Source of the DNA: Paraprevotella xylaniphila YIT 11841
Lineage (GTDB): Bacteria > Bacteroidota > Bacteroidia > Bacteroidales > Bacteroidaceae
Direction of reading: 5' to 3'
Assembly (NCBI RefSeq): GCF_000205165.1
Contig: NZ_GL883886.1
Location: forward strand, 17,942 to 81,941
DNA: 64,000 bases
Part shown: positions 18,554-35,031 of the stretch, one piece after another
Numbering within the stretch: position 1 is the stretch's first letter
Layout of the letters: every line of letters begins with the position of its first letter
Program-made: the position numbers and the translations under genes
Notes under the pieces: generated by a model
Database searches by the model: none
What the model was told of the DNA's origin: nothing
Seen by the model: the letters and a program-made list of their open reading frames with translations, nothing else

Positions 18554-18627
18554 TCTTTCATACAGATAAAAGAATAACGGTGGGTTAATATTCAAATTTT
18601 ATCATGGTAGTTTTTACACCGTTATGT

Positions 18628-18666
18628 GCCGCTGTGGAGAAGTGATTCTGTGCAGCGGCTTTTTTT
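18628..18666 (+). terminator. Rho-independent terminator of fumarase
   Basis: GCCGCTG and CAGCGGC arms around an 18-nt loop, followed by a run of seven T. Confidence 0.75.
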
Positions 18667-18689
18667 ATGGTCAAAAAACAGAAAGAAAC

Positions 18690-19775
18690 ATGAGAAATAA
18701 ATGGTGGATAGGGGCTTGTGCAGCGTGGATGGCATGCGCCCCGCTTGCGGCACAGAATCTTCAAAAGGGAGATTACGGTTATTTATACTGTCACATGAGC
18801 GGACGTGGAGAATGGACGGCATACGCCTTGAGCCGGGACGGCTTGCATTACGAAGACCTGTTGGGAGGAGGACCCGTGTACGACGTAGAGAAGCTTTCCC
18901 CGATAGAGGGAGGGGCGCGCGATGCTTATATTTGCAGGACGTACGACGGCAAGGGGTACGTGATGGTGACGACGGACATGAGCAACCGCAAGAGCCGTTC
19001 CTGGTTCAACCATGGGATAGACTTGCTTCGCAGTGACGATTTGATACACTGGGAATCCGTGGCTTTCGATTTCCGTAAGGGACCTTCCGTCTTTTCCGAT
19101 CCGGATTCTCCTGATGTGTATCGTGACTATGTCGGGATAAAGCGGGTTTGGGCTCCGCAGATTTTTTGGGATCCTGCATACGTGTGGCCGGACGGGAAGA
19201 AAGGCGGATATATGATTTACTATTCTTTGTGGAATCCGGAGGAAGAAAAGTATGACCGGATGTATTATTCTTATGCCGACCATTCTTTTACGACGCTGAC
19301 CAAACCTCGCTTGATGTTCGACTGGGGATATGCTACGATTGACGCGGACATTAATTATGTCCCGGCCGATGGCAAGTATCACATGTTGATTAAAAAGGAA
19401 GGCGGTACGCCGGGTATTTTTGCAGCCACGGCTGACAAGCTGACAGGGCCTTACCGGATTAAGAGCGAAACGGACTATGTACGTTTTGAGGGCAACCGGA
19501 AATGCGAAGGATGTTCGGCTTTCCAACTGATAGGCGACAGTACTTGGCGGGTGGCGTATATCCAGTATTCCACGAAACCCCGGCAATACCGTATCTGTCA
19601 GGCAGATGAACGTATGCAGAATTTTCATTCCCCTGTCACCATAGAAGGAGTGGAGGCACCGCAGCACGGTTCTTTCATGAGGTTGACCAAAAAGGAATAC
19701 AAACGCCTGAAGAGATGGTCTGCTCGCGAGATGAAGCGGCGGGCGAGAGATGATAAGGGGGCAGAAATAAACTGA
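18690..19775 (+). CDS. GH43-like five-bladed propeller glycosidase, secreted, 361 aa
   Basis: Signal peptide MRNKWWIGACAAWMACAPLAAQ. The body shows repeated propeller blades with GH43 marks: AYALSRDGLHYEDL, LLRSDDLIHWE, VWAPQIFWDPAYVW, IDADINYV (probable central Asp) and a late acidic residue in KCEGCSAF (probable catalytic acid). The usual N-terminal Asp-base motif is not obvious, so the exact subfamily and activity (arabinosidase or exo-galactosidase) are open. It points toward the HTCS gene, with which it shares a terminator. It sits 5.5 kb from the HTCS-controlled genes and has no copy of their operator upstream. Confidence 0.82.
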   Translation: MRNKWWIGACAAWMACAPLAAQNLQKGDYGYLYCHMSGRGEWTAYALSRDGLHYEDLLGGGPVYDVEKLSPIEGGARDAYICRTYDGKGYVMVTTDMSNRKSRSWFNHGIDLLRSDDLIHWESVAFDFRKGPSVFSDPDSPDVYRDYVGIKRVWAPQIFWDPAYVWPDGKKGGYMIYYSLWNPEEEKYDRMYYSYADHSFTTLTKPRLMFDWGYATIDADINYVPADGKYHMLIKKEGGTPGIFAATADKLTGPYRIKSETDYVRFEGNRKCEGCSAFQLIGDSTWRVAYIQYSTKPRQYRICQADERMQNFHSPVTIEGVEAPQHGSFMRLTKKEYKRLKRWSAREMKRRARDDKGAEIN

Positions 19776-19780
19776 TGGAT

Positions 19781-19822
19781 AAAAACGGGGAATATGCACA
19801 TAAAAGGGCATTCCCCGTTTTT
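19781..19822. terminator. Bidirectional terminator between GH43 and HTCS genes
   Basis: AAAAACGGGGAAT pairs with ATTCCCCGTTTTT around a 12-16 nt loop with a two-base bulge; A and T runs on both flanks suit both strands. Its right arm overlaps the HTCS stop. Confidence 0.75.
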
Positions 19823-22800
19823 ATTTTCCGGTGAACTTGCTAGGAGGTACGTTAAAGTGTTTGGTGAAACAACGGGTAAAGTATTTCGGGTCGTTGAAGC
19901 CGACTTGGTAAGCTATCTCGGAAATGTTTAAGGTATGTCCGGTTTTGCTTATGAGAATTTCTTTAGCTATGTTCAGGCGATAGTTACGTAATAGTTCTCC
20001 TATAGCAGTACCTGTCAGTTCTTGTGTTTTTTTGTATAATAAACTTCGGCTGATTCCCATATCTGCGGAGAATTCATCCACGCCATATTCAGCATTGGAA
20101 TAATTCTTTTTAAGGAGATCGAGGAGCTTGTCCATGAATGCTTGGTCTTGAGTACCTGGTTTGATGTGTAATTCTTCGCTTATCATGTGATATGCGAATT
20201 TCTCCTGAAGCCTTTTGCGGTTTCTGAGTAAGTTTTCTATCCGGGTCAATAACAGGTGTTCGTCAAAAGGTTTGGTCAGGTATGCATCCACTCCAAACTC
20301 GAAACTTTGGATGTGTGCCGTTTCGGAAGTTTTGGCTGTCAGGATCAGGAAGGGGATGTGTGATATGGAAAAGTCCGATTTTACATGATGGGATAGTTCC
20401 ATTCCGTCCATGATAGGCATCATTAAGTCGCTTAAGATGAAATCAACGTGCTGCGTGTGCAGGATGTCGAGTGCTTCTTTACCTTGCGATGCCTCCAGGC
20501 AGTGATAATAGGGCGATAGGATGGCATGTAAATACTCCCGCATGTCCTTGTTGTCTTCCACGATGAGCAGGTTTATGGAGCTTTTCTCCGTTTCCATCAT
20601 TTTCTTATGGGTTTCCGGGCTTTTGGGCAGGGATATTTGTACCCTTGTAGATGGAGATGCTTCAATAAGGTGCAGGGGAAGTAAGAACCGGAAAGAACAA
20701 CCGGCGGTCCGATTGTTTACGACCCATATTTGTCCTCCTTGCAGTTGTACGAGTTGTCTGCATAAATATAAACCTATGCCTGTGCCGCTTTGGCCATTTA
20801 TTGATGTACAAGGTCGCTTATCTGATTGGTAGAATCTTTGGAATATCATTTCTTTATCTTTTTCAGCAACACCCGGACCTGTGTCGCATACGCTTACAAA
20901 GAGTAAAGAACCTGAAGTGGAGGTAAGGGTCTTGGTGAACAATTTTATACATCCTCCTTTGGGAGTGAATTTAATCGCGTTAGACACTAAATTGAACAGG
21001 ATTTTATGAAGCGCGTCCTCGTCAAAAGAGACGGTACATTCCGGTAAATGGAAATAATATTGTATTCTTAGGCCTTTTTCAGCGGCATAAGCGCTAAATA
21101 GGAGTTTCAAGTTTTGGAATAGCGGTAATAGGTATCCTTCGTGGAGCGTGATCTTCATATTGCCACTTTCCACTTTACGGAAGTCCAATAACTGGTTGAC
21201 TAAAGAGAGCAGATAGTGGCTGTTACGGTCTACTATCTGTAATTGTTTGTTGGTTTCTATATCGGTATTGGTCTCTAAAAGATGCCTTACGGGGCCGATA
21301 ATGAGTGTTAAAGGAGTACGGAATTCATGTGTGATGTTGGTGAAAAAGGCCAATTTTTCGGCTGTCAGGTTTTGTATTCTTTTTGACATGTCGAGTATTT
21401 CAGCTTTCTGTCGGCTAAGCAGTTCGTTTTGTTTTTCCAACGTTTGTGTACGTTGTGCCAACAAATCAGTTTGTGTTTTCAGTTTCTGTGTGCGTGATAC
21501 GACTTTCTGGTGTAATTCTTTCTTTTGTAGCTTTAGCGTTCGTACGCGCCACATATATATAAGGTATAGGATTAGGATAAGGCACAGGCAACTTATGATT
21601 CTGAACCATGCGGTTCTGAAAAAGTAAGGAGTGATGTGCAATGCCATCTTTCCTTCCGAACCGGATTCGAAGTGTATACCGTCTGTGGCGTACCGTACTT
21701 CCAAGACGTATTGACCCGGTGGAAGGTTGGCGTATGATATGGTACGGTTGTCTTTTCCCGTGATGGTCCATTGGTCGTTAAAGCCTTTGAGTCGGTAGGC
21801 ATAGGCGGCTTGTGGGGTGACGTTGTAGTCCAGTGTGGCAAATTCAATGGAGATGAATTTTTCACGCTCGTGTATTTCAACGACTCCGTCTTTTACTTGT
21901 ACCTCACCTTGTAAGGTTTGGCAATGGGTGAATACGACGGGAAATTTTTTTTGTAGGATTGAAGGTTGTGAAGCCGGTGAGACTACAGAGAGTCCGGTCA
22001 TGTTACCAAAATACAGTTCTCCATTTCTTCCTTTGTATGCCGCGTTCCAGTAAAATTGGTTACAAGCTAATCCGTCGTCCAAGGTATAGTTTTGGAAACA
22101 CTGTTTTTGTGGAAAGAAGCATGAAAGTCCATGCAATGTGGAAATCCAGATATTTTTTGTATTGTCTTCCAATATTCCCCTCACGTGGTTGTTTACCAAC
22201 CCGTCACGAGTAGAATAGTTTTGAAAGGTGTATGTACCGTCTATCGTTTGGGTTCCGATATAAAAGCCGTTACCGTTTGTGCCCACTAAAATACGGTTGT
22301 CGGAGCTTATTGTTACGAATGTGATTCTTTCTTTATCATGTGATTGGGGATTATTCAATTGGTACGGCCATAGCTGAAAGACGTTTTTTCCTTGGTGGAA
22401 GCGTTTTAAGTCGATGCGGCAAAGGCCGGCTGTCAATCCTAACCACAAATTGTGCTGACGGTCTATACATGCTCCCGCGTTACCCGTTTGCATACCTCCA
22501 AGTTTTTGGTTCCTAAACGGTTCATCTATTTTCTCACTAGGGACATGGTATGTATAAACGGATTTGCTGGTGGCAATCCATAGCGTCTGATTGAGACTGT
22601 CATATTGGATGGCACAAGTGCTAGCCCAAGCAAGTTCAGGGTGTGTATTGTCGTACAATGGGTGGAATTTCACCTTTCCTGAAAGAGTTTGCTCCACACT
22701 GCATACTCCACCGCCCCACATTCCAACCCATAGCTGTGAACCGTATCCTGTAATGCAGCTTACTGTGTGACTGGGTAAGCCATCCTTCATGGTGTAATGT

Positions 22801-23999
22801 GTGAATTGTCCCGGTGAGGTCATACGGTTGAGTCCGCTTTCTACCGTACCCACCCATACCTCGCCGTCATCTGCCGTATAGATGGCGTTGACGGTCTGTG
22901 GAGAAATACTTTGCGGTAAGTCACCAGAGTGGATATAGTTTGTCACAGTTAGTCTTTTGGGGACAGCTTTCATCAGTCCGTCGGCTTCTGTACCTATCCA
23001 TACGGTTTCTCCGTCAACCAACAAACAATTAATGAAGTTGCAGAAAATGAAGTCCGACTTCTCGTCTTGGAAAGATTCATAACCGACTTGCTCAAATTTA
23101 TCCGTTTGTTCATTGTATATGTTCAGTCCTTTGAGGGTAGATACAATCAAGGTCTGGTTTGGTGTTTCTGCAATATCAGTGATGTAGTCTTGACTTAAAG
23201 AATGGAAAGGAGCTGAAGAGTGATATTCCTTATGATGGTTGCCTTTGGAATCATATAGGAAAAGACCGTTTGATGTGCCCACCCAAAAATGGTTTCCAGT
23301 TTGGTACAATGCTTGCGTACGGCAGTTTCTTGGCAGGTTGGCAAAGAGGGAGACGGAAGAGGTCGGATGCCGTAGGTCTATTCTGTATATGTTTTCGGAA
23401 CATCCGATCCATAAAATATCTTTTTCGTTTTCATAAAATGTTATGATGTCTTTGTTATGGATGAAAGGAAAGTTTTGAATGGTTGCAATGTTCCCGTCAG
23501 AGGTAAAGTTGATTCTGTAAGTTGCTTGTCTGCCTCCAACCCACAAGTTTCCTTTTCTGTCGCAATAGATGGAGTGGCATGGTTGGCTGCGTAACGAATC
23601 CCAAGCAAGTGCAGGGGATGCTGATAAGGTTAGGGATATTAGTTTTTCAGTATCAAGGCATTCCAATCCGTTGTCCCCTGCAATCCATAGCCTGTCGTGC
23701 AGGTCTTCGCAAATGGCTTTTGCAAAATCGTTTTGAATGTGTCGGACGCTTTCAGTGGAATTGAACGAAATGAACTGATAGCTGTCATATCGGCATACGC
23801 CGCCTCCGTAGAGTGCGAACCAAAGGAAACCTTTGCTGTCTTTCAAGATGTCTTCTACGAAGTTATGTGGTAAACCTTCGTTTATCCCAATGGTAGAAAA
23901 CTTTTGGCTTTCACGCCAAAGGAGATCATTTGTTTTGGCTTGTACTCTTACACAAGAAAGAATGAGTAGGATCAGATAAAAGAAGTTCTTGCTTTTCAT
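19821..23999 (-). CDS. Hybrid two-component system sensor/regulator (HTCS), 1392 aa
   Basis: All steps of a phosphorelay are in one inner-membrane protein. Signal peptide (MKSKNFFYLILLILSCVRVQA); two seven-bladed propellers to about residue 720 with repeats such as DSKGFLWFALYGGGV; a Y_Y_Y domain to about 795; one membrane helix near 798-818; histidine kinase with H891 in NITHEFRTPLTLIIGP and an ATPase domain with GTGIGLYLCRQL; receiver domain with D1191 in ILSDLMMPIMDG; AraC-type HTH at the C-terminus (ISEIAYQVGFNDPKYFTRCF). Such proteins sense an oligosaccharide in the periplasm and activate their polysaccharide-use genes. Here it is divergent from the 24200 operon. Likely targets are the 24090 and 30780 operators. 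Confidence 0.96.
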   Translation of the reverse strand: MKSKNFFYLILLILSCVRVQAKTNDLLWRESQKFSTIGINEGLPHNFVEDILKDSKGFLWFALYGGGVCRYDSYQFISFNSTESVRHIQNDFAKAICEDLHDRLWIAGDNGLECLDTEKLISLTLSASPALAWDSLRSQPCHSIYCDRKGNLWVGGRQATYRINFTSDGNIATIQNFPFIHNKDIITFYENEKDILWIGCSENIYRIDLRHPTSSVSLFANLPRNCRTQALYQTGNHFWVGTSNGLFLYDSKGNHHKEYHSSAPFHSLSQDYITDIAETPNQTLIVSTLKGLNIYNEQTDKFEQVGYESFQDEKSDFIFCNFINCLLVDGETVWIGTEADGLMKAVPKRLTVTNYIHSGDLPQSISPQTVNAIYTADDGEVWVGTVESGLNRMTSPGQFTHYTMKDGLPSHTVSCITGYGSQLWVGMWGGGVCSVEQTLSGKVKFHPLYDNTHPELAWASTCAIQYDSLNQTLWIATSKSVYTYHVPSEKIDEPFRNQKLGGMQTGNAGACIDRQHNLWLGLTAGLCRIDLKRFHQGKNVFQLWPYQLNNPQSHDKERITFVTISSDNRILVGTNGNGFYIGTQTIDGTYTFQNYSTRDGLVNNHVRGILEDNTKNIWISTLHGLSCFFPQKQCFQNYTLDDGLACNQFYWNAAYKGRNGELYFGNMTGLSVVSPASQPSILQKKFPVVFTHCQTLQGEVQVKDGVVEIHEREKFISIEFATLDYNVTPQAAYAYRLKGFNDQWTITGKDNRTISYANLPPGQYVLEVRYATDGIHFESGSEGKMALHITPYFFRTAWFRIISCLCLILILYLIYMWRVRTLKLQKKELHQKVVSRTQKLKTQTDLLAQRTQTLEKQNELLSRQKAEILDMSKRIQNLTAEKLAFFTNITHEFRTPLTLIIGPVRHLLETNTDIETNKQLQIVDRNSHYLLSLVNQLLDFRKVESGNMKITLHEGYLLPLFQNLKLLFSAYAAEKGLRIQYYFHLPECTVSFDEDALHKILFNLVSNAIKFTPKGGCIKLFTKTLTSTSGSLLFVSVCDTGPGVAEKDKEMIFQRFYQSDKRPCTSINGQSGTGIGLYLCRQLVQLQGGQIWVVNNRTAGCSFRFLLPLHLIEASPSTRVQISLPKSPETHKKMMETEKSSINLLIVEDNKDMREYLHAILSPYYHCLEASQGKEALDILHTQHVDFILSDLMMPIMDGMELSHHVKSDFSISHIPFLILTAKTSETAHIQSFEFGVDAYLTKPFDEHLLLTRIENLLRNRKRLQEKFAYHMISEELHIKPGTQDQAFMDKLLDLLKKNYSNAEYGVDEFSADMGISRSLLYKKTQELTGTAIGELLRNYRLNIAKEILISKTGHTLNISEIAYQVGFNDPKYFTRCFTKHFNVPPSKFTGK

Positions 24000-24029: not shown

Positions 24030-24089
24030 CGCTTTTTTTAAGGTGTCGGGAGATGAAATGAAGCCTTTTTCGTAGTTCTTGTTTGATAA

Positions 24090-24144
24090 TCCACCCGAAA
24101 AAGATGAAAGTCCACCTCGTAAATATCACCGAGGGGTACATTTG
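24090..24144 (+). promoter_or_regulatory. Candidate HTCS operator and promoter, 24200 operon
   Basis: TCCACC at 24090 and again at 24111, a direct repeat with 21-bp period, each followed or preceded by A-rich sequence; the -7 box TACATTTG starts at 24137, 26 bases after the second half-site. The same arrangement occurs at 30780. There is no -33 TTG, as expected for an activator-dependent promoter. Confidence 0.62.
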
Positions 24145-24199
24145 CACAAGTCTTTTCCATTTGTGGAGGGATATGTTCCATTTAAAACACATTGAAGTT

Positions 24200-26983
24200 A
24201 TGAAGAACAAGTTACTTTCTTTTGCGATGTTGGTGGCCTTGTCTTCTTCCGTTCCGGCGAAGAATACGGTCACGAAAATCGGCCAAGTGACGGCATCTGT
24301 GGTATTGACAGAGGATATAGACTATGTCATTACCGGAAGTGAGCCTTTTACGGTGACCGGAAGTGTCAATATCAAGAACAAGGAACATGCCGTGGTTATC
24401 TTGGAGAATATACGTCCGAGTGCAGCACTGTCATTCTTGGGATTTATTGATATAGACGGGGCTCCGGCCGTGGATGGGGAAAATTGCCAGGTGAAAATGT
24501 ATGCGCAGGGGGCAATCATCATGCCTTATGCCAAAGACCTGAAACCTTTGACTGTATATTCCGAACAGAATTTCGGTGGGGAATCGGTGAATGATTTCGG
24601 TTTGGAAAATTCAGGAGGATTCATGAATACTCTGACGGAGGAAAAGCTGAACAACCGTATCCGGAGTTTCAAGTTAAAGCGTGGCTATATGGTGACATTT
24701 GCCAACAATCCGGGTGGACGCGGGTATAGCCGATGCTTCATTGCGGATGATGCGGATTTGGAAATTGCGGTTTTGCCTGAGGTACTTGACCGGCATATTT
24801 CGTCTTATCGCATTTTCAAGTGGAATGATACCCAGAAAAAGGGGTTAGCCAGTGATACCGGTAAGGGGAATAACAGCATGCTTAATTCTTCTTGGTGCTA
24901 TACTTGGGGTGTGGGCTATGACATGGGAGCGGATTATGAATGTGTGCCTCATCATATCCATGAGACTTATCCATCTCCTACGGCTTTGGGGAAAGCTACA
25001 TATTCCCCTCACATGAAGACGAACAATGAACCCGCGAATCCGAATGACGACCAACCGGCTACAGTGGAGCAAGTGTTGGCCAATTGGGAGGAACTCATGG
25101 CAACGGGCATGCGCCTTTGTTCGCCGTCTTATCATGACGGGGGGACTTCATGGTTGCGTAATTTCTTGAATGAGATAGACAAAAGAGGATGGCGCTGCGA
25201 TATCGTGGATTTGCATTGTTATTGGACTGAAAGCCATTTTAATGATTTGCAGAAGTGGTACAATGATTTCCACCGTCCCATTTGGATTTCCGAATTCCTT
25301 TGGGGATCATCGTGGGGTAAGGCGGGAATCTTTGCCGTAGCCGACAATCGGGATTCCTTTTCCGAGGAGAATCAGCAAAAGAACTATGACGGCTTGAAAC
25401 CCATATTGGACAAGTTGAACAAATGGCCTTATGTGGAACGTTATTCTTATTGGAACCATGAAAGGAACTGTTCCAAATTATTCTCGGGAGGAAATCTCTC
25501 CATTGCAGGGAAGTATTATGCGGAAATGAACCCCGGTATAGGTTATAAGAAGGCTTATGAATATGTTCCGAAGGTCGTTTATAACGCTCCGGAAGGTTTT
25601 GATGTGGTTTATACAGAACGAACTCAAAAGCTGACGGTTCAATGGACGAATAAGAATATGGAACTGACAGACTCTACCTTATTGGAACTCAGTATCGATG
25701 GTGGGGAATGGCAGACAGTGCGGAAGTATGAATCGTCGGAAAAGGAAACTTATGTGTATAACGAAGTCTTTTCTGATGATTTCCAAAAGGGGACGTATAC
25801 TTACCGTATACATAATTACGATATGGACGGGAACGAACGTCTGACGGAAGGGAAGTCCGTTTCATTAGTCGGTGCGGAAGGATCACCCGGATTGCAGTAT
25901 GGCACGTTGCGGATTACGGATACTGAAGAAACCAATACGACGTTCGATGCCGGAACAACGGAAGAGTCGGCTGTTTTCATGGGGTTGGTGTCGTATAATA
26001 ATCCTAAGACGGTTCCGGTCGGAACCGTGGTGTCTGTGGCTTATGATAAATTCTCGTTTTGGGCTTTCCCGTGGAATGAAGGCGATTATGTGCAGACTGT
26101 CACAGAGCCTGAGACGGTGGACTTCATGGTATTCTCCAAAGGACGTCACCAGTATGGCGATGTCATGATGGAAGTAGGTGAAACTCCGAAGAAAGTTACG
26201 GAAGACAGTGTCTGGGTCAGCTTTGAAACTCCTTTTCCTGACGGAGTGACTCCTGTGGTTATAGCCAACGTCGTGTCCCGTTACAAGGTGCATCCTTATA
26301 TGGTGAAAGTATGGAATGTGACCCGTGAAGGCTTTGCTGTCAAATTGTCCCGGCAAGCCGCTTTGGACGGGACGTTGGAAACTTTTGCCGGACAGCCGTT
26401 GTGTTATGTGGCCGCCACGCCCGGTGAAGCTTGGATTGAGGACGGGAATAAGAAATTGACAGTCGGATTGAATACGGTGGATAAAGTGGACGGGCGCAGG
26501 TCCCGTCCGGTGAACCTGTTGGATGGCAGTGGAGCAGCGGTTTCCCTTCTGAATCCTTATTTCCTTTGTGGTCCTCAAACCGATAATTATCCTTCTGCCT
26601 CAGTGTATCGGATAGCAGAGCAGATTAAGTCTCCGTCGGAAACCGATGCAAGCTTGTTGCTGACTACCGGTCTGAAAGTTATCCGCCAGAAGGATGAGAC
26701 CGCTGAAGTCCATGTTGTGGACAATGCGGCGGCTAATGGGGATTTGATGGGATGGATAGCCATTAGTGAGAACTATGGCGGGACGAAGGTCGACGATGTC
26801 CGGAAGCCTGAAGTGAAGGTTTGGGCAGAAGATGGCCGTATCGTAGTGTCCGGCACGGAGGATTACCGTATATACGGTCTTGACGGAAGGCAAATGCCGC
26901 GAGGGCAGCGGTTGCCGGATGGCATTTATATCGTAAAGACCGAGGGAAAAACTGTGAAAATCATGGTGTCTTCTGTAAAGTGA
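24200..26983 (+). CDS. Secreted GH128/Asl1-like glycosidase with H-type lectin-like domain, 927 aa
   Basis: Signal peptide MKNKLLSFAMLVALSSSVPA. Residues about 25-220 are a beta-rich N-terminal domain. Residues about 230-440 form a TIM barrel with TNNEPANP (E277, likely acid/base), IVDLHCYW, and PIWISEFLWGSSW (E365, likely nucleophile), the layout of clan A families such as GH128, so beta-1,3-glucan or a related beta-glycan is possible. Then a fibronectin-like module, a lectin-like domain (TPFPDGVTPVVIANVV, VWNVTREGFAVKLSRQ) and a tail resembling a type IX secretion type A signal (YRIYGLDGRQMPRG, GIYIVKTEGKTVKIMV). Start set by the promoter at 24137. Family assignment is by motif only. Next gene follows after 40 bases. 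Confidence 0.75.
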   Translation: MKNKLLSFAMLVALSSSVPAKNTVTKIGQVTASVVLTEDIDYVITGSEPFTVTGSVNIKNKEHAVVILENIRPSAALSFLGFIDIDGAPAVDGENCQVKMYAQGAIIMPYAKDLKPLTVYSEQNFGGESVNDFGLENSGGFMNTLTEEKLNNRIRSFKLKRGYMVTFANNPGGRGYSRCFIADDADLEIAVLPEVLDRHISSYRIFKWNDTQKKGLASDTGKGNNSMLNSSWCYTWGVGYDMGADYECVPHHIHETYPSPTALGKATYSPHMKTNNEPANPNDDQPATVEQVLANWEELMATGMRLCSPSYHDGGTSWLRNFLNEIDKRGWRCDIVDLHCYWTESHFNDLQKWYNDFHRPIWISEFLWGSSWGKAGIFAVADNRDSFSEENQQKNYDGLKPILDKLNKWPYVERYSYWNHERNCSKLFSGGNLSIAGKYYAEMNPGIGYKKAYEYVPKVVYNAPEGFDVVYTERTQKLTVQWTNKNMELTDSTLLELSIDGGEWQTVRKYESSEKETYVYNEVFSDDFQKGTYTYRIHNYDMDGNERLTEGKSVSLVGAEGSPGLQYGTLRITDTEETNTTFDAGTTEESAVFMGLVSYNNPKTVPVGTVVSVAYDKFSFWAFPWNEGDYVQTVTEPETVDFMVFSKGRHQYGDVMMEVGETPKKVTEDSVWVSFETPFPDGVTPVVIANVVSRYKVHPYMVKVWNVTREGFAVKLSRQAALDGTLETFAGQPLCYVAATPGEAWIEDGNKKLTVGLNTVDKVDGRRSRPVNLLDGSGAAVSLLNPYFLCGPQTDNYPSASVYRIAEQIKSPSETDASLLLTTGLKVIRQKDETAEVHVVDNAAANGDLMGWIAISENYGGTKVDDVRKPEVKVWAEDGRIVVSGTEDYRIYGLDGRQMPRGQRLPDGIYIVKTEGKTVKIMVSSVK

Positions 26984-27023
26984 AAGGTTTAGTGTTTTTA
27001 ATTCATCCAATACAAATTAAAAA

Positions 27024-30000
27024 ATGAAGATTATGAAAAACAAAATGTTAGCGTTGGTGGCCCTTTGTGGAGCCACATCATCCACCATGCCTTTGTGGGC
27101 GGCAGAATGGGCCGACCCAGTGTTGGAATTTGCCGCACCCGACTTGAAGACCGATGGCACGGGCGGTGGGGTATATTACGTTTACCATGTGGCTACCCAA
27201 AAGTTTATGTGTAACGGGAATTACAAGGACAACTGGAACACGGAGCTTGTGGTGGCCGATGAAGGACGGGAGGTAACCCTGAGTTATGGAGACGATTACG
27301 AATTGAGTCGTCGGCCTGAAACAGATCCCGAATATTCCGTTGAAAAAGGTTGGCGTTTAAGCATGAAAAATGCACCCTCTAATGGCGGTTTTCACGAATT
27401 GTTCATCAGGGCTGCTTCCATGGTGATATGCGTGGACCATAACAAACAGGGGCACATGTTGTGGCAGATTATGCCGCAAGAGAATGGAACCTATCGTATC
27501 AAAATTATAGATGGGGATAAATTGTATGGGGTGGAAGCTTCGGATGGCATATATAAAAATTCTTATGTGGCCGTCAACGAAGGGGAAACCGGGGTGAATC
27601 CTGTGCTTAATCCTGAGACAGCCGGTTACATGAATGCTGGTTTGGATTGGAAATTTGTCACACCGGAAGCTTATGAAGCTTATAAGGCCAAGCTTGAATT
27701 GCAGGATGCGTTGGAGAAAGCCGACGAGGCAGGGTTTACGGATTATGCGGAGTATGCCGGCATATATGAAAACCCCGATGCAACGGCGGAAGAGACGGAA
27801 AAAGCTGTTGGGAAATTGTCCCAGGCCATCATTGATTTCAAATATAATGCTGCCACGGAGGCGAATCCGATGGATGTGACAGAGTTGATTTCCAATCCTA
27901 TGTTTGACGGGAATGCAAATGGTTGGGTTTCTCAAAGGGATGCCGTACCGGGAGGGGCACAGGATAATTTCGGTTATACTTCCGGAACAATTACGACATC
28001 CGATGGCGTGCCGTTTACGACTTGTTTTCAACGTTGGAATTCTAAAACTCAAGTACCTCGCCAACCGGATTGGTCCGTCACGCAGGATTTGACGGGACTT
28101 CCGGATGGTAAATACCGGTTGAAGGCATATATCCTGACGAATGTAACGGGAATGCAACCCGAAGGGCGGTTTCTGGTCGCCAAGACTTTGGCCGGCGAGA
28201 AGCGTACGGAGGCTAATGTGCCGTCGCCGGACGGAAGTGCCTATGCTGTTCCTTATACTGTGGATTTTTCTGTTATTGGTGGTACGGCCACGATAGGCAT
28301 GATAGTGGAAAATTGCAACTCTAATTGGTCTTCTGTGAGTAATTTTTCATTGCAGTATTATGGGAAATCCGGTGCGGCTACTTTCCGTGATGCTTTGCTT
28401 GAATCCATAGCGGATGCAGAGAAAAAATATGCGGAATATACGGAGGCTCATGTCACTTTCAGTAATGTAGGAAAGGAGAAATATGAAGAAACGATTCAGG
28501 CGGCCAAGGCTGCGGCGGAAAACCAGGAGATAAAAGATGAGGATTTGAGGCAGGTAATCGATGTGGTGCAGGCACGTATGGATTCTTTGGCATTGGATAT
28601 TTCCGCTTATGAGAGTTTGAATGCCCAACGGTTGGAATTGGAAAAGGCTTACGAAGAGAATCCCTATTCCGAAAACGGCTTGGAGGGTTATGAAGCTTTT
28701 TTGGACGGCTTGCTGGAGGCTTATGAGCGTTGCACTTTCAATCCCAATGAAGTGGACAGCATCCAGTCGCGTGCGGACCGGATATTTAAGTATTCCGTAT
28801 TGGAATTATTGAGAAATGGTGGGACGACCGATGTGACGGGATTGTTTGTCAATCCGGATTTCACTTCCGACAATACCGGATGGACAAAGACCGGGAACGG
28901 GGAGTTTAAAAATTCCAACGAGGTGGCCGAGGTTTGGAACGGTACAGATTTTGAAATGTATCAGGAAGTGACAGGTCTTCCGGAGGGAACATATAAGATA
29001 ACCATGCAAGGGTTCTACTCTCCGAGTTCCACGGACAAAAGCTGGCAGGCTTCTTGGGGGACAGAAGGGGATGGGCTTAACGAGGTGAAAGCTTCCCTTT
29101 TCGGAAACGATGTGTCCGTGAAGCTCCATCATGTGCTGGCATATCCGCAAACGGAAGACATTGCGGGCAATTGCGAACAAGTCTTTGAAACAGGCGATCC
29201 TGCCGTTGACGGCATGTGGTTCTGTCACGGGACTTCTTCCGCGCATGAGATTTTCGACCTGTCTCCCGATAATTATCGGAATACGGTGAACTGCTATGTG
29301 ACGGACGATGGCCGCTTGCGCATAGGAGTGAAGATGGCCGGAGCCGAGTTAAAGGCTGCTTGGGCGCTTTTCGACCATTTCGAGGTGGAATATCTTGGAG
29401 CGGAGGATATGAGTGGTGCCAAATCGGTAATCAGTGCCCTGATAGGGGAAGCCGCAGCCATGCGCGACGAGGAACTGCAACTTACTACGCGTGAGGCTCG
29501 GAAAACATTGTCGGCAGCGGTAGAGTCGGCTTCGGCAGTACTCGACCAGTTGACGTTGGAAACCTATAAAGAGCAAATGGCATCGTTGGATGCCGCTATC
29601 GCCATGGGCAAAGAAGCACTTAAGGCTGCGTCTGCCTTGGAGGCTACAGTATACGGGCATGATGCCAAGATGCAGAGCGAGGACGGAGGTTATTCCGATT
29701 ATGTGGGCACACCGGAGTTTGATGAGTTCGAAGCTTTGATAATAGAACTTTTAGGAAAGATAGAAAGCAACGAGAATGCTGTTTTCGAGTCGGTTGCCGA
29801 GATAGAGGATTATAATGTAAGAATAACTAAAGCCTATGCCAATATGGTGGTCGGCCACATGGATTTGGCTTCCGCTTCAATCGACACCCCGTTGGACATG
29901 ACTTCAGTGCTCATGACACCGAGTTTTTCGGATAAGGATGAAGAAGGTGGGGATGTGAATGCTTCAGACGGATGGGTTTCGTCCATGGTGGGCGGAAAGG

Positions 30001-30698
30001 CCGAGAATCAGGACTTGGTCTATGAGTTTTACGACACGAAGTCGTGCGACTTGCATCAAACGCTGTACCATCTCCCGAAAGGGTATTACAGTGTGGTGTA
30101 CAACGGGCTTTACCGTGCCGGTGAGCTCATATCGGCAGCGTTGGCCCGCCGTGACAGTGCCGATTCATGGCATGCGGAGGCTTATGTGGAAGTGGGGCAA
30201 GGCAAGTGGAGCGAGAAGTTCCAATCCATTTTCGACGGAGTGAGCGAATATAAATATGATACGTCAGACCGCGTGTTGGCAGATTCCTTGTTCCCCGATT
30301 CTCCGCAACTCCTCTACCATTGCACGGTGGATTCCCGTGTCGGGGCACGTACGGCTTTCGAGGCGGGCGAGTATGAAGGGATTTTCAGTTTCCAAGTTTC
30401 GGAAGAAGGCCAGGATGTGGTCTTAGGGGTACGCAAAAATGAATACGTCAAGAACGACTGGCTTTGTTTCGATAATTTCCGCTTGTATTATTTGGGTGAT
30501 GGTGATGCGAACAAACCGGACGATTTTGTGGATTCCGTGGATGATGTGATGGCAGAAGGGACGCAGAAGGTCGTAGATACGTTATGGTACACGATTGACG
30601 GTGTACGCGTGTCTGCCCCGGGACGGCGCGGCATTTACATCCGCGAAGACCGGATGGAAGATGGCACGAAGAGGACTGTGAAAATCATGGTCAGATAG
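27024..30698 (+). CDS. Giant modular surface protein, 1224 aa
   Basis: Signal peptide ends near STMPLWAAEW. First 190 residues look like a ricin-type beta-trefoil (VYYVYHVATQKFMCNGNY). Then helical FIVAR-like segments (LELQDALEKADEAGFTDYAE, AAKAAAENQEIKDEDLRQVI, ARKTLSAAVESASAVLDQL) alternate with at least three carbohydrate-binding-like jelly rolls that each begin with DVT or DMT, then a N-P-x-F motif and a Trp (ELISNPMFDGNANGWVSQ; GLFVNPDFTSDNTGWTKT; SVLMTPSFSDKDEE). The tail (WYTIDGVRVSAPG, GIYIREDRME, VKIMVR) again resembles a type A sorting signal. No catalytic motif is seen. Probably a glycan-binding surface protein that works with the 24200 enzyme. A second ATG is at 27033. Confidence 0.75.
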   Translation: MKIMKNKMLALVALCGATSSTMPLWAAEWADPVLEFAAPDLKTDGTGGGVYYVYHVATQKFMCNGNYKDNWNTELVVADEGREVTLSYGDDYELSRRPETDPEYSVEKGWRLSMKNAPSNGGFHELFIRAASMVICVDHNKQGHMLWQIMPQENGTYRIKIIDGDKLYGVEASDGIYKNSYVAVNEGETGVNPVLNPETAGYMNAGLDWKFVTPEAYEAYKAKLELQDALEKADEAGFTDYAEYAGIYENPDATAEETEKAVGKLSQAIIDFKYNAATEANPMDVTELISNPMFDGNANGWVSQRDAVPGGAQDNFGYTSGTITTSDGVPFTTCFQRWNSKTQVPRQPDWSVTQDLTGLPDGKYRLKAYILTNVTGMQPEGRFLVAKTLAGEKRTEANVPSPDGSAYAVPYTVDFSVIGGTATIGMIVENCNSNWSSVSNFSLQYYGKSGAATFRDALLESIADAEKKYAEYTEAHVTFSNVGKEKYEETIQAAKAAAENQEIKDEDLRQVIDVVQARMDSLALDISAYESLNAQRLELEKAYEENPYSENGLEGYEAFLDGLLEAYERCTFNPNEVDSIQSRADRIFKYSVLELLRNGGTTDVTGLFVNPDFTSDNTGWTKTGNGEFKNSNEVAEVWNGTDFEMYQEVTGLPEGTYKITMQGFYSPSSTDKSWQASWGTEGDGLNEVKASLFGNDVSVKLHHVLAYPQTEDIAGNCEQVFETGDPAVDGMWFCHGTSSAHEIFDLSPDNYRNTVNCYVTDDGRLRIGVKMAGAELKAAWALFDHFEVEYLGAEDMSGAKSVISALIGEAAAMRDEELQLTTREARKTLSAAVESASAVLDQLTLETYKEQMASLDAAIAMGKEALKAASALEATVYGHDAKMQSEDGGYSDYVGTPEFDEFEALIIELLGKIESNENAVFESVAEIEDYNVRITKAYANMVVGHMDLASASIDTPLDMTSVLMTPSFSDKDEEGGDVNASDGWVSSMVGGKAENQDLVYEFYDTKSCDLHQTLYHLPKGYYSVVYNGLYRAGELISAALARRDSADSWHAEAYVEVGQGKWSEKFQSIFDGVSEYKYDTSDRVLADSLFPDSPQLLYHCTVDSRVGARTAFEAGEYEGIFSFQVSEEGQDVVLGVRKNEYVKNDWLCFDNFRLYYLGDGDANKPDDFVDSVDDVMAEGTQKVVDTLWYTIDGVRVSAPGRRGIYIREDRMEDGTKRTVKIMVR

Positions 30699-30731
30699 GA
30701 TTTCATGATGCACGGCAAGTAATCAATGGGA

Positions 30732-30761
30732 GGGCGGTCTTTGTGAAAAGGCCGCCTTTTT
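30732..30761 (+). terminator. Terminator after the giant protein
   Basis: GGCGGTC and GGCCGCC arms (one G-T pair) with TTTTT. It separates the operon at 24200 from the one at 30863. Confidence 0.75.
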
Positions 30762-30779
30762 AGTGTTTGGGTATCATTG

Positions 30780-30834
30780 TCCACCTCAAAAACACGTTTT
30801 TCCACGTGATTTTAGAATAAGTGCATTAATTTTG
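30780..30834 (+). promoter_or_regulatory. Candidate HTCS operator and promoter, 30863 operon
   Basis: TCCACC at 30780 and TCCACG at 30801, again 21 bp apart; -7 box TAATTTTG starts at 30827, 26 bases after the second half-site, exactly as at 24090. Confidence 0.62.
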
Positions 30835-30862
30835 CGAGGTGCTAATGATAAAAAAGAAAAAG

Positions 30863-33424
30863 ATGAAGATGGAATTTATAAGGCGGTTCGTTGGGCTTTT
30901 CATATTATATGGCAGGTTTGTCCTTTTGGCCGTAGGGGGGTATGTGTTCACGATGTCGTCGTATGCTTTTTCCGGAAAGGAACGTGCGGAGTTGTTTGTA
31001 TCCGGATGGCGTTTCCATTTGGGTAATCCGGAGGGGGATGCCTCTCGCCAAGATTTCGACGACGGTGCATGGCGGTTGTTGGACTTGCCTCACGACTGGA
31101 GCATAGAGGGCGATTTCAGTGCCGACCATCCGGCACGTAAGGAAGGAGGGGCGTTGCCCGGTGGATTGGGTTGGTATCGTAAGGTTTTTGAGGCTCCGCG
31201 TGAATGGCAGGGAAAGAAAGTCTTCGTGGATTTTGACGGGGTGTACATGAATTCGGAAGTGTTCGTAAACGGAAACTCTTTGGGCGTGCGTCCTTATGGT
31301 TACAGTTCGTTCCGGTACGACCTGACCCCTTATTTGAAGTGGGGAGAGCGCAATGTATTGGCCGTGAAAGTTGACAATAGTACCCAACCCAATTCCCGTT
31401 GGTATTCAGGTAGCGGAATCTACCGTAACGTATGGCTTACGGTGGTGGAGCCTGTCCATGTGGGGCATTGGGGCACGTTCGTGACCACTCCGGAAGTGAC
31501 CGGTGAGAAGGCGGTAATGGAGGTGCGTACTATGGTGAAGAATGACGGGCAGGCAGGCCGTAGGGTAGGAGTCGTTTCCACCCTCCTTGATGCACGGGGA
31601 CGGATGGTGGCTGGGCAGTCCGGTTTTGTAGATGTGCCGGCCGGTGGGTGCTCCGAGGCGAGTCACACTTTGATTATGACGGCTCCCGAGCTGTGGAGCA
31701 CTGAGCACCCTTATTTATATAAGGTAAGGACGGAACTTAAAGTAGACGGACGTAGCGTAGATACTTACTATACTACCACTGGCGTGCGTCATTTCAAGTT
31801 TGATGCCCGGACGGGATTTTGGCTCAACGGGAAACACATGAAGATAAACGGAGTGTGCATGCACCATGATTTGGGATGCCTTGGGGCGGCAGTCAATGTC
31901 CGTGCCATCAAGAGGCAACTGGAGATATTGAAGGAGATGGGCTGCAACGGTATCCGTTGCACGCATAACCCGCCTGCGCCCGAATTGCTCGACCTTTGCG
32001 ACCGTATGGGCTTCGTGGTGATGGATGAGGCTTTCGACATGTGGCGTATCCATAAAACCGCATACGATTACGCCTGCTATTTCGACCGTTGGCATGAGCG
32101 TGATTTGGCAGACCTTGTATTGCGGGACCGCAACCATCCTTGCATCTTCATGTGGAGCGTGGGGAATGAAGTGGGGGAGCAATGGCGTAATGCAGGGCGC
32201 GACACCTTGTCGGTCGAAGATGCCAATATCCTATTGAATTTCGGTCGAGACGAGTCGGATTTGCCCCGGTTGGAGGGGACGCATGTCAATACGCTCTTAG
32301 CGGCCAAGCTTTCCGGTCTTGTACGCCGTTATGACCCTACGCGTCCCGTGTTGACGGGAAACAACAGTGGAGGAAAGGACAACCTGTTGCACAAGCCGGA
32401 GGCCGGAATGGATATTATCGGTTACAATTATTGTGTGTGGGACATTCCGAAAGTGCCCAAGGTGTTTCCCGGAAGGCCATTTTTGCTTACAGAGTCTATT
32501 TCAGGCTTGATGACGCGGGGATTCTACCGTATGCCCTCCGATTCCATGTACGTGTGGCCTATGCGCGGTGAGGTACGTGTGCCGGAGGGGAGCAATCATC
32601 TGACTTCGGCTTACGATAATTGCCATGTGCCATGGGGATGTAGTCATGAGGCAGGGATGCGTATGGTGAAAAACAACGATTTCATCTCCGGGCAATATGT
32701 CTGGACGGGTTTCGACTATATCGGGGAACCTACGCCCTTCCCGTTCCCATCACGCAGTTCCTATTTCGGAATCATAGATTTAGCCGGGTTTCCCAAGGAC
32801 GTGTATTACATGTACCAGTCGGAATGGGCTGAAAAACCGGTGCTCCACCTTTTTCCGCATTGGAATTGGAAAGAAGGACAGAAGGTGGACTTATGGGTGT
32901 ATTACAACCAGGCCGACGAGGTGGAGCTTTTCGTGAATGGCAAGAGCCAGGGAACAAAACGTAAGGGACGGGATGATTTTCATGTGGCTTGGCGTGTAAG
33001 GTATGAGCCGGGCACGGTGAAGGCCGTGTCGAGAAAGGACGGAAAGGAAGTCTTGGTGCGCGAAATCCATACGGCGGGTGTACCGGCACGAATCCGGTTG
33101 ACAGCCGACCGCGACACGCTTTGTGCGGACGGGAGGGATTTGGCATTCGTCACGGTGGAAGTTTTGGACAGGGACGGAAACCTTTGTCCCGAAGCTGAAA
33201 ACTTGGTGCATTTCGAGGTCGGGGGACAGGTTTTGATAGCCGGTGTGGACAATGGCAGCCCTTTCTCGATGGAACGTTTCAAGGACACGAAACGTAAGGC
33301 TTTCTTCGGTAAATGTTTGGTCGTATTGCAAAGCAACGGGAAGGCCGGGCATGCCACGTTGAAGGCGGTGTCCGAAGGATTGGACGGAGCAGAGCTCAAA
33401 ATTAAGATGGAGCGGAGTAGATAA
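30863..33424 (+). CDS. GH2 glycosidase, probable beta-galactosidase, 853 aa
   Basis: N-terminal export signal (FIRRFVGLFILYGRFVLLAV), GH2 sugar-binding jelly roll (LLDLPHDWSIEGDFSADH, SGIYRNVWLTVVEPVHVG), immunoglobulin-like domain, then TIM barrel. The acid/base is E436 in WSVGNEVGEQW and the nucleophile is E544 in LLTESISG. C-terminal beta domains follow (DEVELFVNGKSQGTKRKG). GH2 includes galactosidases, mannosidases, glucuronidases and arabinosidases, so the sugar is inferred from context only. Start at 30863 (MKMEFIRRF) gives a 24-nt leader; ATG 30845 and GTG 30839 are nearer the promoter. It is cotranscribed with the GH51 14 bases downstream. Confidence 0.88.
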   Translation: MKMEFIRRFVGLFILYGRFVLLAVGGYVFTMSSYAFSGKERAELFVSGWRFHLGNPEGDASRQDFDDGAWRLLDLPHDWSIEGDFSADHPARKEGGALPGGLGWYRKVFEAPREWQGKKVFVDFDGVYMNSEVFVNGNSLGVRPYGYSSFRYDLTPYLKWGERNVLAVKVDNSTQPNSRWYSGSGIYRNVWLTVVEPVHVGHWGTFVTTPEVTGEKAVMEVRTMVKNDGQAGRRVGVVSTLLDARGRMVAGQSGFVDVPAGGCSEASHTLIMTAPELWSTEHPYLYKVRTELKVDGRSVDTYYTTTGVRHFKFDARTGFWLNGKHMKINGVCMHHDLGCLGAAVNVRAIKRQLEILKEMGCNGIRCTHNPPAPELLDLCDRMGFVVMDEAFDMWRIHKTAYDYACYFDRWHERDLADLVLRDRNHPCIFMWSVGNEVGEQWRNAGRDTLSVEDANILLNFGRDESDLPRLEGTHVNTLLAAKLSGLVRRYDPTRPVLTGNNSGGKDNLLHKPEAGMDIIGYNYCVWDIPKVPKVFPGRPFLLTESISGLMTRGFYRMPSDSMYVWPMRGEVRVPEGSNHLTSAYDNCHVPWGCSHEAGMRMVKNNDFISGQYVWTGFDYIGEPTPFPFPSRSSYFGIIDLAGFPKDVYYMYQSEWAEKPVLHLFPHWNWKEGQKVDLWVYYNQADEVELFVNGKSQGTKRKGRDDFHVAWRVRYEPGTVKAVSRKDGKEVLVREIHTAGVPARIRLTADRDTLCADGRDLAFVTVEVLDRDGNLCPEAENLVHFEVGGQVLIAGVDNGSPFSMERFKDTKRKAFFGKCLVVLQSNGKAGHATLKAVSEGLDGAELKIKMERSR

Positions 33425-33438
33425 CAACATATTAGAAG

Positions 33439-35031
33439 ATGAAGAATATGAATTTGAAAGACAAGATGGTGAGTGTGAAGACGGCAGGGCTTTGTGCCTT
33501 GCTTTTAGCCGGACAGCCGGCATGGTCGGGTACGGGGAAAGACGAGGTAATCCGGCACAATTCCGTGTCCGTAATGCCCGGTGCACCGAAGGTGAAATAC
33601 AGCAAGATGATTTTCGGGCAGTTTATCGAGCACTTCGATAATCAGGTGTACGGTGGATTGTACGACCCGGAGTCTAAGTTTGCCGATGAAGACGGCTTCC
33701 GTAAGGATGTAATTGAGGCTTTGAGGGAAATCAAGACCCCTATCGTGCGTTGGCCGGGTGGCTGTTTCGTATCGACCTATCATTGGCTAGACGGAGTGGG
33801 GAAAGAACGTACCCCGGTGTACGACAAGACCTGGCAGGTAGAAGATCCGAACACTTTCGGGACGGATGAATATATAAAATGGTGCCGGAAGGTGGGGTGT
33901 GAACCTTATATTTGTACCAATGCAGGAACAGGGACTCCGGAGGAGATGAGCGATTGGGTGGAATATTGTAACCTCACTATCGGGAAATACGGACGGATGC
34001 GTGCCGCGAACGGCCATCCGGAACCTTACAACGTGAAGTATTGGAGCGTGGGGAATGAAAACTGGGGCGCACACGAATTGGGGGCGCGTACGGTGCAGGA
34101 GTGGGGTCCCATGGTGCGCGAATCAGCCAAGTTGATGCGCAGCGTGACGAAGGATGCCAAGCTGTTTGCGGCTGCCAAGTCTGACAAGAAGTGGACGTTG
34201 CCTTTGTTGCGCGAAGCCGGCCCTTATTTGGATTATATAGCTATCCATGGTTATTGGGACCCGCTCTTCCATGTCAACAATCCTGCGCCTTACTTGAAGT
34301 GTATGATGAAAACGGATGCTCCGGAGCAAGACATCCAAAGGACTATCGGCATATTGGATGAGGCCGGGTTCGGCGGTGGAAAGATAAAAATCGCTTACGA
34401 TGAGTGGAATTTGCGCAACTGGCACCATCCTTGGCATGGCGACTTGCGTCGCGGTTTCGATTTGGAGGCGCGCCGTAAGAACGATATGGCTTCCACTTAC
34501 ACGATGGCAGACGCTTTGTTTTCCGCCTGTTTCCTGAATGCCTGCCTGCGTCATTCCGACGTGGTGGACATAGCTTGTTTCGCTCCGGTGGTCAACACGC
34601 GTGGGCCTATCTTCGTGCATCCCGACGGTATCGTGAGACGTACTACGTTTTATGTCTTTAAGATGTACACCAATGGACTGGAAGATTATATGCTTCCGGT
34701 TGCTTTGGAAGCCGGGCGGTTGACGCAAGGCAGCCAGTCCACGGCAGTGTTCGATGTCGTGCTGACGGGGAATGCGGACGGAACGCGTTATGTTTACGCG
34801 GTGGTGAATAAGGATCCGGAGAAAAGCCATGCCCTGACGTTGGATTTCAAAAGTCTGGGAGTGAAAGAACCGCGTAAACTCAAGGGGACCGTATTGAGCG
34901 GGACTTCCGCAGACGATTATAATGACATAGGGAAGGAACGGGTGGTGCCCGAGGAACGTAGTTTTGAGGTACGGGATGCCGCAGTGGTTTTACCTCCCCA
35001 TTCCCTGACGTTGTTGAGGTTGGAAAAATGA
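33439..35031 (+). CDS. GH51 alpha-L-arabinofuranosidase, exported, 530 aa
   Basis: Compact GH51 without the N-terminal carbohydrate-binding module of the 1147 enzyme. Signal: MKNMNLKDKMVSVKTAGLCA then AWSGTG. The acid/base is E207 in SVGNENWGAHEL and the nucleophile is E322 in AYDEWNLRNWHH, with KTPIVRWPGGCFVSTYHW upstream. It is last in the 30863 operon and ends with hairpins. Together with the GH2 and the 24200 enzyme it should trim arabinose and then galactose from branched plant glycans; two GH51 genes in one window suggest different linkages or locations. Confidence 0.93.
   Translation: MKNMNLKDKMVSVKTAGLCALLLAGQPAWSGTGKDEVIRHNSVSVMPGAPKVKYSKMIFGQFIEHFDNQVYGGLYDPESKFADEDGFRKDVIEALREIKTPIVRWPGGCFVSTYHWLDGVGKERTPVYDKTWQVEDPNTFGTDEYIKWCRKVGCEPYICTNAGTGTPEEMSDWVEYCNLTIGKYGRMRAANGHPEPYNVKYWSVGNENWGAHELGARTVQEWGPMVRESAKLMRSVTKDAKLFAAAKSDKKWTLPLLREAGPYLDYIAIHGYWDPLFHVNNPAPYLKCMMKTDAPEQDIQRTIGILDEAGFGGGKIKIAYDEWNLRNWHHPWHGDLRRGFDLEARRKNDMASTYTMADALFSACFLNACLRHSDVVDIACFAPVVNTRGPIFVHPDGIVRRTTFYVFKMYTNGLEDYMLPVALEAGRLTQGSQSTAVFDVVLTGNADGTRYVYAVVNKDPEKSHALTLDFKSLGVKEPRKLKGTVLSGTSADDYNDIGKERVVPEERSFEVRDAAVVLPPHSLTLLRLEK

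Follow-up and report, generated by a model that had tools for sequence, protein, structure and literature searches.

Two 21-bp direct repeats of TCCAC stand before two carbohydrate operons of Paraprevotella xylaniphila YIT 11841, next to a gene for a hybrid two-component system (HTCS) regulator, and the question raised by this locus is which protein reads them and how many genes they control. The stretch analysed here comprises 64,000 nucleotides of NZ_GL883886.1 (the window, whose coordinates are used throughout). The two repeats are very probably activator operators of the adjacent HTCS, since together with a promoter box the motif is unique in the genome and is kept beside close homologues of this HTCS. 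To our knowledge, HTCS regulons outside Bacteroides have been little mapped. In Bacteroides, HTCSs form a major class of glycan switches (PMC11253607), and direct repeats about 21 bp apart, bound by a dimer on one DNA face, were described for 16 HTCSs of B. thetaiotaomicron by Ravcheev et al. in 2013 (PMC3878776). The operator is therefore not of an unrecognised kind, as the first-pass annotation had supposed from the window alone.

Its description of the promoters was otherwise exact. The half-sites at 24090/24111 and 30780/30801 are 21 bp apart, the second one starts exactly 26 bp before the -7 box (TAnnTTTG) in both promoters, and the HTCS gene (19821-23999, minus strand) is divergent from the first site. 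Both promoters also lack the TTG of the -33 element: none lies 17-23 bp before either box, which is the spacer range between this element and the box, because the second half-site and its neighbouring letters fill that place. For comparison, the -33 consensus is quoted as TTTG in PMC7366714. Among 34 related sites, a TTG at the -33 place was found in only one (one of the 34, with no clear box, could not be scored). The half-site is longer than had been noted, with TTTGTCCACC as the majority form in the alignment of these sites, and the box offset in the aligned relatives is 26 or 27 bp. Both window sites thus have the layout expected of an HTCS operator, a direct repeat of about 21 bp upstream of a glycan operon.

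The repeat is informative only in combination with the box. TCCAC-N16-TCCAC with at most one mismatch occurs 14 times in the window against 4.4 expected from shuffles, and perfect copies number 48 in the 3.79-Mb genome against 9 for the reversed pattern; with 48 genome matches the bare repeat is not specific and was rejected as a search motif. The composite motif, in which a TAnnTTTG box lies 26 bp after the second half-site, has exactly two perfect matches in the genome, namely both window sites, and four more at one or two mismatches, and its reversed control has none at up to two mismatches. The imperfect sites include C75:110783, 40 bp after another HTCS and taken as the own operator of that regulator, and C27:8624 (locus L248). 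In addition, a sequence-only operator model was built on 34 sites from other genomes, both window sites being excluded. These sites were selected by a TCCAC repeat (at most one mismatch) and a box, with a variant box at L060:14578 and L063:4608, and include two sites of genus g9 and several from near relatives; as a consequence of the selection, the TCCAC letters are nearly constant in the model, and the adjoining TTTG and the C and T that come next were unselected. The model recovered the window sites at 24083 (29.8 bits, E 1.6e-6) and 30775 (26.4 bits, E 1.7e-5), and the next match in the genome had an E-value of 0.033, a gap of about 2000-fold, followed by six weaker rows up to E 2.35. By pattern search and model alike, the composite motif is therefore concentrated at the two window sites rather than randomly distributed. 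A recent duplication of upstream DNA, or chance, might also make two promoters alike where no selection for a site exists, and TCCAC repeats at 21 bp are indeed common in this genome, apparently in coding sequence. This explanation is hardly credible, as the two promoters largely differ outside the half-sites, the A-run after the first half-site and the box, and as a model from other genomes finds both sites where the reversed control finds none.

The same motif follows the regulator through related genomes. In a comparison sample of 201 genomes of the family (labelled G; g3, g6, g9, g14 and g24 denote genera), the composite motif is present in all 17 genomes with a close HTCS homologue (E <= 1e-200) and in 12 of the 184 without (Fisher p = 2.6e-17, relatedness ignored), and the reversed control is present in 2 of the 201. 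Among the 12, G005, G122, G150 and G189 have a regulator of related type without a kinase, which is treated below, and the remaining six besides the g9 genomes (G059, G066, G072, G134, G165 and G179) look like chance or unexplained cases. Sixteen homologous loci were fetched (L060-L075), and loci L080-L159, with homologues of at most 39% best-segment identity, were left out of the analysis; in the relatives the longest of overlapping gene frames was kept, so that shorter true frames may stay hidden. The site lies in the divergent gap beside the HTCS in 15 of the 16 loci, 14 times with a TAnnTTTG box and once (L060) with the variant box TTTCTTTG. The exception, G168, shows no more than a partial model match in this gap (C128:240-279); a complete site is present on a different contig, close to its end and ahead of a gene that shares 82% identity with the divergent GH43 of G126. 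In G135 (L075) a 483-aa frame interrupts the HTCS homologue (L075:722-6773) and splits it into parts of 210 and 1220 aa; the site adjoins the N-terminal piece, and both operators are retained. The absence of the motif before orthologous operons, which had been named as grounds for giving up the proposal, was accordingly not observed, and the site is conserved at corresponding places in genomes that bear the regulator.

The spacing is conserved as well. In the noncoding DNA of the 16 neighbourhoods, 23 TCCAC pairs have a distance of 21 bp, and no other distance between 6 and 45 bp is represented more than once, although the 23 pairs are not independent because some genomes are near relatives. 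In coding DNA they occur three times at 21 bp, with no excess over several other distances. The alignment excludes one further repeat in L065 (L065:5310, one mismatch, box offset 25), at 9.5 kb from the HTCS.

The window HTCS has all parts of its class in one protein: Pfam finds Reg_prop, Y_Y_Y, HisKA, HATPase_c, Response_reg and HTH_18 (the last at 1312-1389), so that a periplasmic propeller sensor, a kinase, a receiver and an AraC-type helix-turn-helix (HTH) are combined, and a hydrophobic segment lies at about 801-819. Its receiver carries SHIP at 1213-1216, a form of the S/CHIP motif that makes an inhibitory contact with the DNA-binding domain (PMC11253607). The HTH of operator-bearing regulators is 43-75% identical to that of the window HTCS, and that of HTCS paralogues in the same genome 24-38%.

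Other loci of the genome provide a further view of the geometry. In 160 kb from 12 other loci of the genome, repeats matching in at least 9 of 11 letters and lying 25-27 bp before a box were counted at distances of 12-40 bp; five matches were found at 21 bp, one at 22 bp and none at the other 27 distances. Eleven loci had been chosen for propeller or HTCS genes, and the twelfth, L248, because the composite search already showed a site there, so that four of the five 21-bp matches count. In L240 (C75) and L247 (C86), a 21-bp repeat with a TAnnTTTG box lies 40 and 56 bp after the HTCS stop codons, with the half-sites TTTTCCACCCT/TGTTACACCCT and TTTTACCCCCT/TTTTTACCCCT, respectively; the L240 site is the one already met in the composite search. 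These sites, L240:3841 (minus strand) and L247:10719 (plus strand), are candidate operators of those two HTCSs. The repeat geometry thus appears to be common to HTCSs and the letters particular to each, and a shared geometry with letters differing per HTCS was likewise described for B. thetaiotaomicron by Ravcheev et al. (PMC3878776). Two further repeats were seen at L250:11501 (minus strand, C65), 44 bp before a 552-aa frame and with the half-site TTGTCCTAT, and at L248:5622 (plus strand, C27), 144 bp before a 781-aa frame, inside the end of a 256-aa frame and with a TCGAC half-site. The match in L243 lies inside a long opposite frame and was set aside as likely chance.

These results also bear on the possibility that another arabinose or carbon regulator (AraR or a Crp-like protein) binds the repeats and the HTCS is a mere neighbour. 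In B. thetaiotaomicron, the BT0365 promoter is a target of AraR, and arabinan genes reach full activation only with BT4338 (PMC5061871). Such a binder is improbable here: the motif tracks the HTCS across genera, further HTCS genes in this genome are accompanied by repeats of equal geometry and different letters, and AraC-type heads as well as the HTCS motifs reported in PMC3878776 are compatible with a direct repeat of 21 bp.

With the repeats read as operators of the HTCS, the genes under its control can be listed (Table 1). The first-pass annotation had limited the regulon to two operons, leaving out a GH43 gene and the left-hand GH51, and the genome-wide model search and the upstream scans of both genes agree in supporting this extent. 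No repeat occurs in the 456 bp upstream of the left-hand GH51 (1147-3144; best 3 mismatches of 10) or in the 424 bp upstream of the GH43-like gene (18624-19775; best 4 mismatches of 10). The latter, convergent with the HTCS gene, encodes a 383-aa GH43-like arabinofuranosidase candidate with a weak NCBIfam match (E 1.8e-12, far below the cut-off). It had also been suggested to look for SusC/SusD or more enzymes under the motif, and no SusC/SusD, GH43 or further enzyme was found under the operator in this genome, where the model search yields only the two sites. A real site with a larger regulon, in which drifted half-sites stand elsewhere, e.g., before a SusC/SusD pair, is unlikely. The one-mismatch site after another HTCS on C75 speaks for it, as cross-binding between HTCSs is possible, and the lack of any model match between E 1.7e-5 and 0.033 speaks against it.

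Table 1. Putative operators, promoter boxes, regulator and target genes in the window
Feature	Position	Strand	Basis
Operator 1: TCCACC (24090) / TCCACC (24111), 21 bp apart	24090-24116	+	sequence
-7 box TACATTTG, offset 26 bp (start to start) from the second half-site of operator 1	24137-24144	+	
Operator 2: TCCACC (30780) / TCCACG (30801), 21 bp apart	30780-30806	+	sequence
-7 box TAATTTTG, offset 26 bp (start to start) from the second half-site of operator 2	30827-30834	+	
HTCS regulator, 1392 aa: propeller and Y_Y_Y sensor, kinase, receiver, AraC-type HTH	19821..23999	-	Pfam domains, hydropathy
Target 1a: 927-aa protein with Glyco_hydro_cc domain	24200..26983	+	Pfam E 8e-17
Target 1b: 1224-aa protein, predicted jelly rolls like carbohydrate-binding modules (CBM) and helical linkers	27024..30698	+	predicted structure
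Target 2a: GH2 beta-galactosidase-like enzyme; alternative start codon at 30845 or 30869	30863..33424	+	
Target 2b: GH51 alpha-L-arabinofuranosidase-like enzyme; in G069 likewise operator-borne	33439..35031	+	

The relatives place the operator over a largely different set of genes. Their layout combines an operator in the gap between HTCS and GH43 with an operator before SusC/SusD: in the g3 loci read (G032, G177, G149, G121 and others), the HTCS is followed by a second site, behind which L203, L204, L205 and L206 have SusC-type genes (by Pfam for L203). The divergent operon is GH43-GH51-GH43 in G032, and the GH51 of the relatives' divergent operons is 59-64% identical to the left-hand GH51 of the window. 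This arrangement is shared with HTCS_Ara-1 (BT0366) at the BT0360-BT0369 locus of B. thetaiotaomicron, as the g3 relatives also have the operator between the HTCS and a divergent GH43-GH51-GH43 and before lectin-SusC-SusD genes. BT0366 shifts the BT0365 promoter and the BT0366-BT0367 gap in electrophoretic mobility shift assays (PMC5061871), and the BT0365-60 operon comprises an endo-arabinosidase and two SusC/SusD pairs (PMC3878776). We infer from this analogy that the window HTCS is of the BT0366 type; a text search yielded no paper with the letters of the BT0366 site, and the likeness concerns gene layout. Unlike the BT0366 regulon, the window operator stands over a Glyco_hydro_cc protein, a multi-CBM-like protein, GH2 and GH51, and over no SusC/SusD, so that of the arabinan-regulon pattern (operator over SusC/SusD pairs and GH43/GH51) the window genome shares only GH51. 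As regards the substrate, plant arabinogalactans and arabinans had both been considered, and the regulon of the relatives points to arabinan rather than arabinogalactan.

GH51 is the part that the operator-borne genes of the window and of the relatives have in common, with sensor and operator kept while other targets changed. In the sister species G069, whose HTCS is 57% identical to that of the window, the first site precedes a 1210-aa homologue (43%) of the 1224-aa protein; behind the second site comes a GH51 with 78% identity to the window's, and then a GH2-like gene. In g14 (L065 and L066), the third gene of the divergent operon encodes a GH51 of about 30% identity to that of the window. 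A 519-aa GH51 frame of L060 (9124-10683, minus strand) lies opposite a 562-aa frame.

Some observations weigh against the assignment of the repeats to this HTCS and against its comparison with BT0366. The window sites, at 29.8 and 26.4 bits, score below most of the relatives' sites, which themselves trained the model; the lower scores arise because operator 2 has TCCACG as its second half-site and because TTTG does not precede both half-sites in either case. Homologues of 37-40% identity (L076-L079) have an HTH 43-47% identical to that of the window HTCS and no motif, so that HTH identity alone cannot predict a site. Within the window's genus, such an HTCS is present in 2 of 18 genomes and absent from the other 16. 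Two g9 genomes, G008 and G058, carry a composite site and have no HTCS homologue at E <= 1e-100. The link to BT0366, finally, is drawn from gene order, with homologues that are 41-45% identical. As a separate observation, the g9 sites (L193:7794 and L194:7374) precede TonB-dependent SusC-type genes.

If the HTCS is the activator, its periplasmic propeller would bind a piece of glycan, most probably an arabino-oligosaccharide, as with BT0366, its presumed relative; the HTCS dimer would then autophosphorylate, the phosphate would pass to the receiver and the AraC-type heads would be freed. Two of the heads would next bind, side by side, TTTGTCCACC-like half-sites that lie two helical turns apart on the same DNA face, with the regulator still anchored in the membrane. 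Because the -33 place is covered by the proximal half-site, the bound regulator would replace the -33 contacts and recruit RNA polymerase to the TAnnTTTG box. The passages of Ravcheev et al. consulted state no fixed register to the -7 box for their operators, which differs from the register of 26 or 27 bp, covering the -33 place, found here.

The same operator is also found with regulators that have no phosphorelay. A protein of 986-997 aa in G005, G122, G150 (g6) and G189 (g24), and of 983 aa in G164 (g6), aligns with the HTCS sensor and ends in HTH_18 (L191:4758-7718, L192:4704-7667, L190:9468-12428, L189:4769-7762 and L313:8244-11195, in the order of these genomes). No HisKA, HATPase_c or receiver was detected in the five by Pfam at E <= 0.001. 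Each has a hydrophobic segment near 793-819 with a hydropathy of 1.67-2.46, three of the five being below the cut-off of 1.9. The operators of these genomes combine the TCCACC core with a 21-bp repeat and a box at +26, with one mismatch in G164. They precede SusC-type genes in G005, G150 and G122 (Pfam) and, by similarity, likewise in G164 behind a 622-aa gene and a GH51 homologue in G189. From this neighbourhood and the HTH likeness, the kinase-less proteins appear to act on the same operator. The sensor tree covers four of them (all but G164) and groups these with the full-length HTCSs of G107, G149 and G074 in a fork of seven rows (support 95/97); this nesting among full-length HTCSs fits a secondary loss of kinase and receiver, as opposed to an ancestral lack. 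In the HTH tree, g6 falls outside and G189 inside the group of G107, G149 and G074, and since this tree splits them, one or two losses may have occurred.

Taken over the genera, the chance is perhaps slightly better than even that one operator grammar (TTTGTCCACC at 21 bp, 26-27 bp before the -7 box) outlived both the exchange of targets in the window's genus, where GH51 stays, and the loss of kinase and receiver in five genomes of two other genera. If so, the phosphorelay would be dispensable for reading the operator, and a membrane sensor would be fused directly to an AraC-type head. Direct signalling from sensor to head is plausible because intact membrane-bound HTCSs bind DNA, presumably while in the membrane, according to the consulted part of PMC3404733. 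The kinase-less g6 and g24 regulators would resemble SusR, which senses glycans through periplasmic ligand binding, lacks a kinase and uses direct-repeat sites (PMC3878776). They would differ from it in that the SusR sites are described there as 67 or 77 bp apart and its DNA-binding domain as unlike other families, whereas the kinase-less forms have an AraC-type head and a 21-bp operator. In the portions of the literature consulted, neither an operator without SusC/SusD as here nor one with a kinase-less regulator was found in print; for the latter nothing evident appeared, which is not proof of absence. A fixed register to the -7 box would let HTCS regulons be read from sequence across the phylum, and because core letters, spacing and box distance are kept across genera, such regulons should be computable. 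Two short DNA fragments are now available for direct binding tests, and the relatives offer a natural experiment, with the same operator in the presence and absence of a phosphorelay.

Among the target proteins, the GH2 of operon 2 is close to beta-galactosidases, and the 927-aa protein has distant structural relatives including 6uaq. We take 6uaq and the other related structures to be GH128, of clan GH-A. The 1224-aa protein matched no family at its cut-off, and its predicted structure (pLDDT 84, pTM 0.46) shows no catalytic barrel. Of its Foldseek results, the local CBM matches alone were treated as informative, and they include CBM61, CBM16, CBM22 and others, with target TM-scores of up to 0.73; the top Foldseek rows are Cry proteins at a TM-score of 0.11-0.14, which is no fold identity, and a Cry-like fold was rejected. 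A suspected tail like those of the type IX secretion system was left unproven, as NCBIfam gave no match for the 1224-aa or the 927-aa protein. Homologues at E <= 1e-20 occur in 43 of the 201 genomes for the 1224-aa protein and in 73 for the 927-aa protein. Of the operon-1 homologue loci, 27 were read (L291-L304, L306, L307 and L318-L328; L290, L305 and L308, with no readable frame, lie outside this number), and 25 of them have at least two mismatches to the repeat. L293 has one mismatch, and L294 a perfect repeat upstream of the homologue; the latter was rejected as an operator because it reads as coding on the other strand (a DxDGT-like peptide), and the L293 repeat is of the same kind. The 1224-aa protein belongs to a family of proteins of about 1200 aa with several CBM-like domains, and tandem paralogues of it occur elsewhere in its own genome (L311 and L312) and in G188 (L309 and L310).

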